From Sutcliffiella horikoshii (GTDB taxonomy: Bacteria; Bacillota; Bacilli; Bacillales; Bacillaceae_I): DNA of 64,000 nt. Below, in pieces: positions 13,044-17,650 of this stretch. Where the stretch lies: positions 2,372,666 to 2,436,665 of the forward strand of contig KV440964.1 of the NCBI GenBank assembly GCA_001636495.1. Reading direction: 5' to 3'. The stretch's first letter is position 1; each line of letters begins with the position of its first letter. Position numbers and translations under genes: made by a program. Below the pieces are notes generated by a model, which had not been told where the DNA came from, made no database searches, and worked only from the letters and a program-made list of their open reading frames with translations.

Positions 13044-13499
13044 ATGGAACCGGAAATAAAAATGCTGAACCATCATACTGATGAAGCTACAAAACAGACA
13101 TTGCAGCTGCTGGTTAATAAAAAGCGGAAGCAGGACACTTTCAAGAAACGGGAGTGGAGATGGAGAATATCCTGCTGTGTAACGGTAGGATTATTCCTGG
13201 CATATGTTTACTTTTTTATATTCCATCAATCTCCTTCCTATTCAGCAAGTTTCTCGTATTTCTTTGATCGGACTGTGCACTTTTGGATTGTCATGTTCAT
13301 CGCATTTCAGCTTGGAATGATTAAATATCTCCTTTACAAGAAGGATAAGGCGGAGAAAGAATATCATGAACTACGTAAAGAAATGGTGAAGAGAAGTGAT
13401 GATTACTGGTCTAAGCCTACGGATTGGAAACAAAGACATCACGTTTTTGATATGATGAAAAGGGAATTTGATATTAATTTATATCATGAGACGAAATAA
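13044..13499 (+). CDS. ypbF: YpbF-like membrane protein of unknown function
   Basis: A 151-residue protein. About 45 N-terminal residues are soluble and Lys/Arg-rich, two membrane helices lie at about 46-64 and 78-98, and the C-terminal tail is charged with a probable coiled coil (KKDKAEKEYHELRKEMVK). The ATG at 13044 is chosen because AAAGAGGGGA precedes it at proper spacing; the ATG at 13026 lacks an SD. Position in the cluster matches B. subtilis ypbF. The gene ends at a strong terminator, which closes the ypbB-recS-ypbD-ypbE-ypbF operon. No function can be assigned. Confidence 0.8.
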   Translation: MEPEIKMLNHHTDEATKQTLQLLVNKKRKQDTFKKREWRWRISCCVTVGLFLAYVYFFIFHQSPSYSASFSYFFDRTVHFWIVMFIAFQLGMIKYLLYKKDKAEKEYHELRKEMVKRSDDYWSKPTDWKQRHHVFDMMKREFDINLYHETK

Positions 13500-13533
13500 T
13501 CATACTTGGTACAATTCTAGGGCTTTATGGTAT

Positions 13534-13566
13534 AGTTGCGAGAGTAAGTGGTCGCAACTTTTTTTA
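13534..13566 (+). terminator. Rho-independent terminator after ypbF
   Basis: AGTTGCGA and TCGCAACT pair across a 10-base loop, followed by eight T residues. Confidence 0.92.
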
Positions 13567-13644
13567 TGCCGTAGAAAATACGAAAAAGAGATCATGGTAC
13601 ATATATATTATATATTATATATTTTCCAAGAGGGGAAGTTTTAT

Positions 13645-14424
13645 ATGGTTTGGGTCCTGGTCTTATTGGGAGTTGTTGCTCTTGCAGGGGGAATGCTTCT
13701 TTTTTATATGTTCAATCAGGCTAAGCAAGAAAATATAGTGGAGCAGACACTTGCTTTTCCTGAATTCCCAAGTAGCTTTGGGGAAGTTAGGATCTTCTTC
13801 ATTTCTGACATTCATAGGCGGAAAATTGATCCGAGTTTTATAAAAAAAATAAAAAACATAGATTTGGTTGTAATCGGTGGTGACCTAACAGAAAAGAAGG
13901 TGCCGTTTGAACAGGTAGAGGAGAATATCCAACAACTGAAAAAGCTGGGCCTTATCTTTTTTGTGTGGGGAAACAATGATTATGAAGTGGAGCATCATGA
14001 ACTGGATTCGCTGCTTTTGCACCATGGAGTCAAGATATTGGATAACAAAAGTTATCTGTTTGAAAGTGATACAGGAGATAAGCTGGAGGTCTTAGGGGTG
14101 GACGATCTGGTGCATGAAAGGGACCGTCTCGATGTGGCTTTGGAGGAAACTACTGGGGAGAGCTTCAAAATATTGGTCAGTCATGAACCTGAAATTGTGG
14201 AAAAATTCACTGAAAAAGAAGGTATCAGTCTCGTATTGAGTGGACATACACATGGGGGGCAGATCCGAATCTTTGGTTTTGGTCCCCACGAGAAAGGTAG
14301 AATCACACATTTGCCATATACAACACAATTAATTAGTAATGGATTTGGAACGTCGTTGGTTCCTTTCCGTTTAGGCGCACCTCCAGAAACACACATACTG
14401 ACCATTACAACAAGAGCACGGTAA
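13645..14424 (+). CDS. ypbG: Membrane-anchored calcineurin-like metallophosphoesterase (YpbG)
   Basis: A 259-residue protein with an N-terminal membrane anchor (about 2-24) and a metallophosphoesterase domain. The metal-site motifs are DIHRR near residue 53, GGDLTEK near 77, WGNNDYE near 111 (Asn where the classical GNHD has His), SHEPE, and SGHTHGGQ near 203. It resembles YaeI/YkuE-type membrane phosphoesterases. The substrate is unknown. The ATG at 13645 has GAGGGGAAG upstream; the frame stays open through the ypbF terminator upstream, which rules out the longer version. A very AT-rich stretch at 13600-13625 probably holds its promoter. Confidence 0.87.
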   Translation: MVWVLVLLGVVALAGGMLLFYMFNQAKQENIVEQTLAFPEFPSSFGEVRIFFISDIHRRKIDPSFIKKIKNIDLVVIGGDLTEKKVPFEQVEENIQQLKKLGLIFFVWGNNDYEVEHHELDSLLLHHGVKILDNKSYLFESDTGDKLEVLGVDDLVHERDRLDVALEETTGESFKILVSHEPEIVEKFTEKEGISLVLSGHTHGGQIRIFGFGPHEKGRITHLPYTTQLISNGFGTSLVPFRLGAPPETHILTITTRAR

Positions 14425-14467
14425 TGCAAATACTTACTTTTCGAAAGTAAATCATAATCTGTAGTAT

Positions 14468-14500
14468 ACCTATTCAAAACCTATACAAAGTTTACACAAC
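14468..14500 (+). promoter_or_regulatory. Three tandem 11-bp direct repeats: candidate CarH/LitR operator
   Basis: Three contiguous 11-bp units lie end to end: ACCTATTCAAA (14468-14478), ACCTATACAAA (14479-14489) and GTTTACACAAC (14490-14500). Units 2 and 3 fit the pattern nnTnnACAnn, and unit 1 has TCA for ACA. Published work on Thermus CarH describes 11-bp repeats of this kind bound by successive MerR-type domains. The third unit overlaps the -35 box of the downstream regulator gene. The match was found by eye. Confidence 0.65.
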
Positions 14501-14519
14501 TGATTTCGTACTATATAAT
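14491..14519 (+). promoter_or_regulatory. Sigma-A promoter of the MerR/B12 regulator gene
   Basis: TTTACA (14491-14496), a 17-bp spacer and TATAAT (14514-14519). The -35 box lies inside the third 11-bp repeat, so a protein bound there would block transcription. A small hairpin (TTACTTT/AAAGTAA, 14434-14450) lies upstream after the ypbG stop. Confidence 0.8.
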
Positions 14520-14556
14520 TCAAGTATGGATTTTGTTAGGAGAGAAAGGGATCTGT

Positions 14557-15471
14557 ATGTCAAATAATGAAGGTAAATACAATATTAAAGCAGCATCTAA
14601 AATGCTGGGAATTCAGCCGGGAACATTAAGAGCGTGGGAGAGAAGATATCAAATTATCGCTCCTGTCAGAAATGATTCTGGTCACCGCTTGTACACGGAA
14701 GAGCATATCAGGATACTCAAGTGGTTAATGCAGAAGGTGAACAAGGGCTTTACAATTAGTCAAGCCGTATCACTATTCGAAAAGAACAATCAAGCTCTTT
14801 TGGAAACGGATCACCACGCACATACGGATCAAGAAGATATGTCCACTGACTTACTTAATCAATTGCTGGAAGCTCTTTTGGAGTTCAATGAAGGGCAAGC
14901 GCATGAATTGATGGATAAGATTTTTAGTTTATATTCGGTTGAGAAGGTACTTATTGATATTCTGGGAACATTGCTCGTTAAGATTGGTGATATGTGGGAG
15001 AATAATGAAATTTCAAGTGCCCATGAACATTTTGCTTCTGCATTTTTACGTTCTCGTATCGGGATGATTCTTCACGGATTACCGGTAAACGGCTTCCTCC
15101 CAAAAACGGTCTCCGTATGTGGACCTGGGGAGTGGCATGAACTCGGATTACTTATATATACGCTTTTTGTAAGAAGAAAAGGTTTTGAAACCATCTATCT
15201 TGGTACTAGTATCGCAGATGACGATATCCATGTCGTCTTAAAAGAGATTCAGCCAAAATTTTTATTCCTGTCTTGTACACTGTCCATTAACCTGCCTAAA
15301 ACGTTGGAAATGGTGTCAGAGCTTAAACGACAATATCCAGACCTGATAATCGGAATAGGCGGTACTGCTGTGGATAAAATGCCTGAAAACAAGAAACAGG
15401 AATATCATGATCATCTGATCGGCAATACGATGAAAGATTGGGAAGAATGGCTGAGAGTAAGGATGAATTAA
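14557..15471 (+). CDS. MerR-family regulator with cobalamin-binding domain, CarH/LitR-like
   Basis: A predicted B12-dependent transcriptional repressor of 304 residues. Domains in order: MerR winged helix-turn-helix (about 7-75, with LGIQPGTLRAWERRY and the SGHRLY wing), a four-helix bundle (about 95-175), and a Rossmann-like B12-binding domain (about 185-300). The bundle carries Trp147 and Glu157-His158, the Wx9EH signature of adenosylcobalamin photoreceptors such as CarH. The lower ligand is His194 in EWHELG (ExHxxG). SD AGGAGAG precedes the ATG at 14557. The gene is monocistronic behind a promoter overlapped by three 11-bp repeats, suggesting autorepression. B. subtilis lacks it at this site as I recall. 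Light sensing is inferred from residues, not shown. Confidence 0.87.
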   Translation: MSNNEGKYNIKAASKMLGIQPGTLRAWERRYQIIAPVRNDSGHRLYTEEHIRILKWLMQKVNKGFTISQAVSLFEKNNQALLETDHHAHTDQEDMSTDLLNQLLEALLEFNEGQAHELMDKIFSLYSVEKVLIDILGTLLVKIGDMWENNEISSAHEHFASAFLRSRIGMILHGLPVNGFLPKTVSVCGPGEWHELGLLIYTLFVRRKGFETIYLGTSIADDDIHVVLKEIQPKFLFLSCTLSINLPKTLEMVSELKRQYPDLIIGIGGTAVDKMPENKKQEYHDHLIGNTMKDWEEWLRVRMN

Positions 15472-15504
15472 ATTTCCTTTCCAACAATGGAAATTCGCCA
15501 CGAA

Positions 15505-15567
15505 CCAACTTACACCTTTTATCATAAAATGTAAGAAGTTTAAGGAGTTAAAGGGTGTAAAGGTTGG
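15505..15567 (+). other. Long imperfect inverted repeat in the mecB leader
   Basis: CCAAC-TT-ACACC-TTT (15505-15519) is complementary, with three single-base bulges, to AAAGGGTGTAAAGGTTGG (15550-15567). The right arm ends at the first bases of the mecB Shine-Dalgarno (GGGAGGAG, 15566-15573). If transcribed, it could fold next to the ribosome site. Whether it acts in RNA or as a DNA operator cannot be told. Confidence 0.5.
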
Positions 15568-15579
15568 GAGGAGTCTTTC

Positions 15580-16170
15580 GTGCGGCTGGAACGGTTAAAC
15601 TACAATAAGATAAAGATATTTCTCACATTTGATGACTTGGAAGACCGCGGGTTGACAAAAGAGGATTTATGGAAGGATTCGCAAAAGGTTCATCAGCTGT
15701 TTCGAGACATGATTGATGAGGCTAGTGCGGAATTGGGATTTGAAGTGAGCGGTTCGTTGAATGTAGAAGTCTATGCTCTTCAGGCGCAAGGGATGGTTGT
15801 CATTGTGACTTCAACCGAGCAGGAAGAATTGGAAGAAGAGTTCAACGACGATTATATAGAAATGCAAGTAACAGTGGATGAAAGTCAGGAATTATTTTAC
15901 GTATTCCAGTCCTTTGATCACCTTATTGATATGGCAAAAAGGCTTAAAGCATTTCATATTCACGGCGGTACCATCTATTCCCATGATCAGATGTTTTACT
16001 TGCTGCTATCGGAAGAAGATGTGGATATAAGGATGGACATGGACACATTGATTGCTTTGTTATCTGAATATGGCACGCCGTCCACCATGACCACTCACCG
16101 CGTAGAGGAATATGGCAAGAAATTGATGGACCATCATGCAATGGACCAATTGAATAAGTATTTCAACTAA
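15580..16170 (+). CDS. mecB: Adaptor protein MecB (YpbH), MecA paralogue
   Basis: An adaptor that brings substrates to the ClpC/ClpP protease. The 196-residue sequence starts MRLERLNYNKIKIFLTFDDL, almost the same as B. subtilis YpbH. It has the N-terminal substrate-recognition part (about 1-80), an acidic linker (EQEELEEEFNDDYIEM), and a C-terminal ClpC-binding domain. The GTG start is supported by GGGAGGAG seven bases before it. It stands alone between a long inverted repeat and a terminator. In B. subtilis MecB affects competence and sporulation; the same role is inferred here. Confidence 0.93.
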   Translation: MRLERLNYNKIKIFLTFDDLEDRGLTKEDLWKDSQKVHQLFRDMIDEASAELGFEVSGSLNVEVYALQAQGMVVIVTSTEQEELEEEFNDDYIEMQVTVDESQELFYVFQSFDHLIDMAKRLKAFHIHGGTIYSHDQMFYLLLSEEDVDIRMDMDTLIALLSEYGTPSTMTTHRVEEYGKKLMDHHAMDQLNKYFN

Positions 16171-16173
16171 TAT

Positions 16174-16220
16174 ACAGCCTATTCTACATATAGTTTTTGT
16201 AGTATAGGCTGTTTGTATTT
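16174..16220 (+). terminator. Rho-independent terminator after mecB
   Basis: ACAGCCTAT-CTAC and GTAG-ATAGGCTGT arms with a short T-rich tail. Confidence 0.8.
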
Positions 16221-16281
16221 TCTGACAATTCTTACGTTTTGAAATCGGTTACATTTTTTTAATAAAAGTTTATTTACCATC

Positions 16282-16310
16282 TTTGCATAGTTGTACGGAA
16301 GGTGTATACT
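16282..16310 (+). promoter_or_regulatory. Probable promoter of gudB
   Basis: TTTGCA (16282-16287), 17-bp spacer, TATACT (16305-16310), 60 bp before the start codon. Confidence 0.6.
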
Positions 16311-16369
16311 ATGTCATGAAGATGGACTATTTTAATCTTATTATGTGAGACAATCTAGGAGGTTTACTT

Positions 16370-17650
16370 ATGGTAGCCGAAAAAAGCAATGAAAAAAAGA
16401 ATTCTAATGAAGACAAGTTGGATGTATTAAAATCAACACAAGTTGTTATACATAAAGCCTTGGAGAGATTAGGCTATCCTGAAGAAGTATATGAATTGCT
16501 AAAAGAACCGATGCGCATGTTAACGGTGAAAATCCCGGTAAGAATGGATGACGGATCTGTAAAAATCTACACTGGTTATCGCGCCCAACATAATGATGCT
16601 GTAGGACCGACCAAAGGGGGAATTCGTTTTCACCCCAACGTTTCGGAAAAAGAAGTAAAAGCACTCTCCATCTGGATGAGTTTAAAATGTGGAATTGTAG
16701 ACCTACCTTATGGTGGTGGTAAAGGCGGTATCGTCTGTGACCCACGTGAAATGTCCTTTAGAGAGTTGGAAAGATTAAGCCGTGGTTATGTTCGCGCAAT
16801 CAGTCAGATTGTTGGACCGACCAAGGATATCCCGGCTCCTGACGTATTTACCAACTCACAGATCATGGCTTGGATGATGGATGAATATAGCAGAATTGAT
16901 GAATTCAATTCTCCTGGATTTATTACCGGGAAGCCATTGGTATTGGGCGGATCCCATGGGAGAGAATCAGCAACAGCAAAAGGGGTTACCATTTGTATCC
17001 GTGAAGCGGCCAAGAAGAAAGGCATTAATATAGAAGGTGCACGAGTAGTTGTACAAGGTTTCGGTAATGCCGGAAGCTACCTATCCAAATTCATGCATGA
17101 TGCAGGAGCAAAAGTAGTGGGTATTTCTGATGCTTATGGCGGATTATATGATCCGAATGGTTTGGACATCGATTATCTATTGGACCGTCGTGACAGCTTC
17201 GGAACCGTAACAAAGCTATTCAACAACACGATTTCCAATAAAGAATTGTTGGAACTTGAGTGTGACATTCTTGTACCGGCAGCCATTGAAAATCAGATTA
17301 CAGAAGAGAACGCTCATAACATTCGTGCGAAAATTGTGGTAGAAGCGGCAAACGGGCCAACTACCATTGAAGGTACACAAATATTAACCGACCGCGGTAT
17401 CCTTCTTGTTCCTGATGTGCTTGCAAGTGCAGGGGGAGTGACAGTATCCTACTTTGAGTGGGTACAAAACAACCAAGGCTACTACTGGACGGAAGAGGAA
17501 GTAGAAGAGAAGCTAGAGAAAGTGATGGTCAAATCGTTCAACAATGTGTACGATACATCACAAAGCCGCCGTGTGGACATGAGGCTTTCCGCTTACATGG
17601 TTGGAGCACGTAAAATGGCCGAAGCATCACGCTTCAGAGGCTGGATATAA
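16370..17650 (+). CDS. gudB: NAD-specific glutamate dehydrogenase GudB
   Basis: Catabolic glutamate dehydrogenase converting glutamate to 2-oxoglutarate and ammonia. The 426 residues show the substrate-binding GPTKGGIRFHP (about 80), the catalytic-Lys PYGGGKGGI, and the NAD-binding VQGFGNAGSYL (about 226). The known B. subtilis laboratory-strain lesion, a 9-bp duplication repeating VKA before LSIWMSLK, is absent: the sequence reads SEKEVKALSIWMSLKCGI, so this copy should be active. SD AGGAGG precedes the ATG. It is a single-gene unit with a promoter at 16282 and a terminator at 17671. Order gudB-ypdA matches B. subtilis. Confidence 0.96.
   Translation: MVAEKSNEKKNSNEDKLDVLKSTQVVIHKALERLGYPEEVYELLKEPMRMLTVKIPVRMDDGSVKIYTGYRAQHNDAVGPTKGGIRFHPNVSEKEVKALSIWMSLKCGIVDLPYGGGKGGIVCDPREMSFRELERLSRGYVRAISQIVGPTKDIPAPDVFTNSQIMAWMMDEYSRIDEFNSPGFITGKPLVLGGSHGRESATAKGVTICIREAAKKKGINIEGARVVVQGFGNAGSYLSKFMHDAGAKVVGISDAYGGLYDPNGLDIDYLLDRRDSFGTVTKLFNNTISNKELLELECDILVPAAIENQITEENAHNIRAKIVVEAANGPTTIEGTQILTDRGILLVPDVLASAGGVTVSYFEWVQNNQGYYWTEEEVEEKLEKVMVKSFNNVYDTSQSRRVDMRLSAYMVGARKMAEASRFRGWI

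Follow-up and report, generated by a model that had tools for sequence, protein, structure and literature searches.

A CarH/LitR-type regulator with a predicted operator in its own promoter in Sutcliffiella horikoshii and its relatives

Introduction

CarH-type regulators bound to adenosylcobalamin (AdoCbl) are described as repressors in the dark, whose cofactor loses its Co-C bond in the light (PMC8156234, PMC10442372). A review gives two sequence motifs as defining CarH homologues: Wx9EH, which caps the adenosyl group, and the cobalamin motif ExHx2Gx41SxV/Tx22-27GG (PMC8156234). Published CarH operators are reported as three or four 11-bp repeats placed over the −35 or the −10 element of a promoter (PMC9304148). 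The two systems closest to the one presented here are CarH of Thermus thermophilus (TTH_RS10490; PDB 5c8d) and CarHBm, the CarH/LitR protein of Bacillus megaterium, which we could liken to ours by description and which is given as an AdoCbl-dependent repressor of carotenoid genes from the same bacterial order; its operators are described as four repeats, or three and an imperfect one, again over the −35 or the −10 (PMC9304148, PMC8156234).

Here we analyze a gene of this type, called carH in the following, on a stretch of 64,000 nucleotides of Sutcliffiella horikoshii (the window). We think it probable that its product is an AdoCbl-dependent repressor of the CarH/LitR type, which is released by light and whose regulon comprises carH itself, two carotenoid (crt) operons and an mgsR-type gene. 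What would be new to the field is a regulon that, by prediction, includes mgsR, as well as a group of proteins differing from Thermus CarH in two residues that have been linked to light switching.

Results and Discussion

The protein and its ligand residues

The gene extends from the ATG at 14557 to 15471 on the forward strand and encodes 304 residues with a MerR-type DNA-binding domain and a cobalamin-binding domain, the combination that characterizes CarH/LitR proteins. Three Pfam families scored above their cut-offs: MerR_1 (PF13411) at residues 8-73, B12-binding_2 (PF02607) at residues 99-170 and B12-binding (PF02310) at residues 183-282. The best matches among proteins of solved structure, over residues 4-270, were 3whp (E 1.2e-27) and Thermus CarH (5c8d, E 1.5e-27). 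The latter shares the domain order and is about 30% identical to the window protein; as alignment partner we took the CarH sequence from plasmid pTT27, and among the best 30 of 216 records the plasmid matches were all from Thermus.

In the alignment to Thermus CarH, Trp147 (codon 14995..14997, forward strand as for all features given here) corresponds to W131, the cap over the adenosyl group, Glu157 and His158 (codons 15025..15030) correspond to E141 and H142, and His194 (codon 15136..15138) corresponds to H177, the lower cobalt ligand. Trp147, Glu157 and His158 form the Wx9EH motif, and the cobalamin motif is also complete, starting at residue 192 with spacings of 41 to SCT and of 26 to GG. 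The preliminary description of this stretch had recognized a MerR/B12 protein with CarH/LitR residues, a reading with which the Pfam domains, the full motif and the alignment to Thermus CarH agree; in particular, Trp147 and His158, whose loss on realignment would have spoken against it, are both retained. W131, E141, H142 and H177 are furthermore invariant in all 46 sequences of a set composed of the window protein and 45 relatives, which are 52-93% identical and come from Sutcliffiella, Metabacillus, Rossellomorea, Robertmurraya, Halobacillus, Domibacillus and other genera.

The NCBIfam CarH model NF052513 was the best family match, its 138.9 bits (E 1.8e-40) lying under the 400-bit cut-off of what is an equivalog model for one narrow group and no definition of the whole CarH/LitR family. 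Judged by its defining motifs, the gene product is a CarH-type regulator.

The locus

Two neighbors give the context of carH: a gene for a ypbG-like phosphodiesterase (13645..14424), which lies outside the switch and is found upstream in 38 of the 45 related loci, and a mecB/ypbH-type gene (15580..16170; NF002781, 293.2 bits against a cut-off of 224), found downstream in 43 of them. Matches to both together flank the gene in 36 of the 45 loci, so that the place of carH is kept; as the 46 rows are related by descent, neither these counts nor those for the operator below represent independent events. In B. subtilis, we assume, no gene stands between ypbG and mecB.

The operator and promoter of carH

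Directly upstream of carH lie three contiguous 11-bp units: ACCTATTCAAA (14468..14478), which departs from the TnnACA pattern by one mismatch, ACCTATACAAA (14479..14489) and GTTTACACAAC (14490..14500), which both fit it perfectly. The third unit holds the −35 box of a sigma-A-type promoter (14491..14519) with TTTACA at 14491-14496, a spacer of 17 bp and TATAAT at 14514-14519, which agrees with the consensus in 11 of 12 positions and has the top score of the 11 promoter-like matches in 13400-16500, where 10.1 were expected. Tandem TnnACA repeats of 11 bp over a promoter element are a mark of CarH/LitR systems, and the repeats at 14468-14500 can be regarded as a predicted operator. Thermus CarH shares both the repeats and the position of the −35 within one unit. 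The preliminary description had noted the three repeats, the mismatch in unit 1 and the overlap of unit 3 with the −35 of a well-formed promoter, all of which the sequence bears out, and its comparison to the geometry of published CarH operators is in line with what PMC9304148 reports of them.

Taken by itself, the window provides weak evidence for the operator: its 64 kb contain two triple repeats with no more than one mismatch against 0.49 expected, and at least two occurrences were obtained in 9 of 100 shuffles, so that it is not significant in one sequence. It becomes strong through the comparison across genera. Upstream of 39 of the 46 carH orthologues there is a triple with one mismatch or fewer, although one of the 39 (L043) matches on the reverse strand, probably by chance; for other ORFs at the same loci the figure is 1 of 754 upstream regions. 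With at most two mismatches the counts were 44/46 and 22/754. Among those control regions that are intergenic, the triple was present in 1 of 369 cases at one mismatch or fewer and in 16 of 369 at two or fewer. The concern that the repeat pattern might be equally common at unrelated promoters, which the preliminary description had raised against its own reading, is allayed by these frequencies.

In the place of unit 1, most of the 46 promoters have TATTCA or a similar unit with one mismatch, and in the place of unit 2, TATACA occurs in 43 of them. A fourth, perfect unit further upstream is present in 19 of the 46, which agrees with the operators of three and four repeats reported for Thermus and B. 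megaterium (PMC9304148). At the own promoters of three of the 46 genes (L039, L043, L046), all with intact ligand residues, we did not find the core pair of units. Motifs, alignment and the conservation of the operator across genera together support a CarH/LitR-type regulator with a predicted operator in its own promoter. Such operators could become light-controlled promoters in Gram-positive laboratory hosts.

Carotenoid operons as predicted targets

The genome has a single phytoene synthase homologue (PF00494). It lies about 1.16 Mb from carH, outside the window, and the statement of the preliminary description that no carotenoid gene is near is accordingly true for phytoene synthase. Here the system differs from Thermus, where carH adjoins genes for phytoene synthase and photolyase. 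The distant crt cluster consists of two converging operons, one running from a crtI-family desaturase (here called crtN) through another desaturase to the phytoene synthase, and the other with a carotenoid-biosynthesis protein (PF04240), an acyltransferase-like protein, a glycosyltransferase and a desaturase.

When the own genome was scanned with three operator patterns, matches came up at both crt promoters (3552857, 3544566), at carH (2387136) and at an mgsR-type gene (1987432). One of these pattern scans produced 8 matches against 2 in the reversed control: four were at the predicted targets, one repeated the crtN match in a shifted register, and the remaining three, with two mismatches (2263857, 2765362, 3166832), were taken as chance. 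We likewise took the match at 554794, which came from another of the scans, as chance.

By eye, the crtN operator of the own genome covers the −10. Among the 28 CarH-bearing genomes searched (28 of the 45 relatives), 23 have crtN, its absence from the other five resting on a strict threshold of 1e-120. All 23 have an operator with at most one mismatch near the crtN start, which is perfect in 14 and in every case runs against the direction of the gene. At the second operon, the own genome and four relatives share an operator with one mismatch at −52; since these four were fetched via the operator pattern, the five of five is no independent count.

As regards control of carotenoid genes, a trait of CarH/LitR proteins, the observation here is a predicted operator at each of the two crt promoters. 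The preliminary description had left the targets of the regulator open on the ground that no carotenoid gene was nearby; the observation stands, but the cluster elsewhere in the genome carries the operator twice, and the main role of the carH product is therefore probably the usual one, carotenoid control.

An mgsR-type gene as predicted target

The fourth predicted operator in the own genome, at 1987432, lies at the promoter of a stress-regulator gene of the Spx/MgsR family, where by eye units 1 and 3 sit in the places of a −35 and a −10. Its product (P0003) matches PF03960, scores 120.5 bits with TIGR01617 (cut-off 75.05), carries a CxxC motif (CTSC), and falls under the SpxA cut-off (113.7 against 159), which a separate SpxA-type paralogue in the relative examined exceeds (182.6 against 159). 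Family and CxxC motif are what the predicted target shares with MgsR of B. subtilis, which we take to be its counterpart from the protein and the gene order in that species.

An mgsR orthologue with at least 55% identity is present in 26 of the 28 CarH-bearing genomes searched, and in 25 of these 26 an operator with at most one mismatch precedes it, perfect in 21; one of the 25 (L101) is on the other strand and has a different sequence. Four Spx-like paralogues, scanned in the same way, showed 3-5 mismatches to the operator. Of the five CarH-bearing genomes in which no close crtN was found, three have an mgsR operator with at most one mismatch and one has an mgsR operator with two; no mgsR orthologue was found in the fifth.

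In B. subtilis, MgsR is described as a protein that guides RNA polymerase to a subset of the sigma-B regulon, and the mgsR gene is said to depend exclusively on sigma B, which is itself activated by blue light (PMC7235348). In contrast, the mgsR-type promoter found here lies in a predicted operator of the CarH type. The accounts of CarHBm on which we draw from PMC9304148 and PMC8156234 mention no mgsR target, and we found no report of MgsR together with CarH or LitR in the open-access collection searched, which does not extend to the primary B. megaterium papers.

That the regulator might control other functions, as suggested in the preliminary description, is thus only partly borne out, by the conserved operator at mgsR and, in relatives, by operators at a gene pair of a different kind. 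At six loci of relatives (L197, L198, L199, L201, L202, L203), perfect TnnACA triples, some of them extended to four units in a row, precede two genes, the first of DUF4397 type and the second of sortase type, an assignment that was tested with HMMs in L199 only. None of the three operator scans gave a match to this pair in the own genome; in the relatives it is possibly a further CarH target.

The proposed switch

In the mechanism we propose, AdoCbl would in the dark be held between Trp147, Glu157 and His158 on one side and His194 on the other, and would assemble the protein into an oligomer. The MerR-type domains of the oligomer would occupy the tandem 11-bp repeats that overlap the −35 or the −10 of the targets and thereby repress them. 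Light would break the Co-C bond, upon which the oligomer would fall apart or loosen and transcription could start, at the regulator's own gene, at the two converging carotenoid operons and at the mgsR-type gene for a stress regulator of the Spx/MgsR family.

Light may in this manner switch on pigment and stress protection together. For a broader version of this proposal, covering a wide range of Bacillaceae, we see about even chances: a B12 photoreceptor that reaches its light state without the His132 ligand (see below) would directly gate an MgsR-type redox-stress regulator that binds RNA polymerase, such that light or the loss of AdoCbl would induce carotenoids and a stress subregulon jointly, with the mgsR operator present even in some CarH-bearing genomes in which no close crtN was found. 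If the operator works, pigment and a stress subregulon would be coupled through one B12 photoreceptor. This would provide a concrete regulon for such a photoreceptor in spore formers, composed of pigment synthesis and of a stress regulator that in B. subtilis is a member of the sigma-B regulon.

Departures from Thermus CarH at the light step

The window protein differs from Thermus CarH at two positions that have been connected to light: His132 is replaced by Glu and Pro203 by Ala. In light-exposed Thermus CarH, His132 serves as the upper cobalt ligand. At the corresponding position, 45 of the 46 proteins have Glu (Glu148 in the window protein) and one has Gly; His was not found there in these 46, nor in four further orthologues with intact ligand residues, nor in six distant proteins. 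The window protein hence lacks the His next to the capping Trp on which the bis-His light state of the Thermus type depends. The second position belongs to the photoreceptor signature proposed with SignatureFinder, which is composed of GxxW, EH, GxxH and GxxxP (PMC11796333). The window protein contains the first three elements, as GDMW, EH and GEWH, and has GTSIA in place of GxxxP, so that the full four-element signature is incomplete. All 46 proteins lack the proline, but Thermus CarH has it, as do the six distant proteins and the four additional orthologues whose ligand residues are intact.

The sequence speaks for AdoCbl binding, for the operators and for the set of targets; because of these two departures, the light step is uncertain. 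The regulator could act through AdoCbl and the same operators and yet be mainly a sensor of coenzyme-B12 supply, with light playing little part since the bis-His light state cannot form. Besides the pattern of missing His132 and proline just described, such a sensor would suit a study in which most of the H132A variant of Thermus CarH remained a tetramer on illumination; the same paper also notes that disassembly had been reported earlier (PMC10442372). Against it stand the invariance of the three residues that form the cap over the light-labile adenosyl group (Trp131, Glu141, His142) and the fact that the best-conserved targets are carotenoid genes, whose control is sensible for a response to light. 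In addition, CarH of B. megaterium, to which our protein is likened by description, is reported to end up dimeric, not monomeric, in light (PMC8156234), which indicates that another light path exists in the order. We therefore regard the supply sensor as unlikely, albeit the most serious competitor of the light-released repressor.

Elsewhere in the own genome (C1:3417238-3417918; L058:9239-9919), we observed a gene for a standalone cobalamin protein of 226 residues without a MerR domain. Its sequence contains Wx9EH and ExHxxG as well as the complete set of four SignatureFinder elements, GSNLP among them; its best solved match is 8jbs, followed by 8j2w, and its gene overlaps one for a 180-residue protein that has no Pfam or NCBIfam match. 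The 226-residue protein is possibly a second B12 photoreceptor.

Similar repeats and genomes without a close CarH

The scans also led to four tandem 11-bp units upstream of a VTC-domain gene (C1:1021922-1021960 in the own genome; L057:7930-7970). We do not count this gene among the CarH targets, since the units there, TTTACA and TTAACA, belong to a TT[AT]ACA class that occurs at loci in at least 12 of 28 genomes. These units fit what we take to be the PhoP consensus, and the repeats of this gene are probably PhoP boxes.

Since repeats of the TT[AT]ACA class mimic our loose pattern in many genomes, the repeats at the predicted targets might themselves belong to another regulator with 11-bp direct repeats, such as PhoP. 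We consider this very improbable: the units at carH, crtN and mgsR have the form T[AG][TA]ACAA, unlike the PhoP-like class, and they stand at the regulator's own gene in most orthologues. What this explanation has in its favor, beyond the mimicry, is the existence of operator-like sequences in two genomes without a close CarH, G091 and G086.

In a sample of 120 genomes across the order, 79 had a CarH match at 1e-30, a count that includes distant paralogues and decayed copies. We searched 29 genomes without a close orthologue, of which 21 had no match (20 of the 41 without one, and G038 from the genus of the window) and 8 had only matches of 28-38% identity. Among these 29, crtN was found in five and an mgsR orthologue in one, and one of the five crtN genes retained the operator. 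The latter belongs to G091, where a near-perfect operator (L211:2727-2754) lies upstream of crtN in a genome without a CarH match at 1e-30. This is a counter-example to a strict link between CarH and operator, possibly caused by a recent loss of CarH, by another regulator or by an assembly gap. The one mgsR orthologue is that of G086, whose upstream region fits the loose pattern perfectly, with units (TTGACA, TGAACA, TTTACA) unlike those of the other genomes. Evidence in favor of the link comes from G038, where crtN is kept and its operator is gone; no mgsR orthologue above 47% identity was found in this genome.

Decayed orthologues at the carH locus

At the carH locus of further genomes we examined seven additional orthologues. 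Three of them, in G031 (from the genus of the window), G136 and G092, lack Trp131, and two of these lack His142 and His177 as well; none of the three has an operator with at most one mismatch. The other four have intact ligand residues, and an operator with at most one mismatch is present in G112 and G071 and absent from G143 and G147. The latter two, like L039, L043 and L046 above, speak against a strict link between CarH and operator. The decayed orthologues hint, weakly, at a coupled loss of ligand residues and operator. They branch in different places of the tree, two of them on long branches whose placement is unsure, and are possibly B12-independent descendants (L221 in G031, L219 in G136, L220 in G092).

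The three orthologues show that the cobalamin site can decay in this family, and by extension the window protein might be a CarA-like repressor that works without B12 and whose cobalamin site is vestigial. As the four key residues are kept in the window protein and all 45 relatives, we give this explanation even less credence than a PhoP-like origin of the repeats, and retain the AdoCbl-dependent, light-released repressor as the preferred reading. At this locus, CarH proteins that lack His132 occur with both intact and decayed ligand sites, a natural series from which it could be learned which residues the light switch needs.

The distant CarH-like class with 28-38% identity was set aside as a source of the operators, the members we read being at other loci. 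In this class (L204, L206, L207, L208, L209, L212, L222), the ligand residues and the proline of GxxxP are kept, the genes adjoin those for transporters or other proteins, and operator-like repeats with one mismatch lie near several members.
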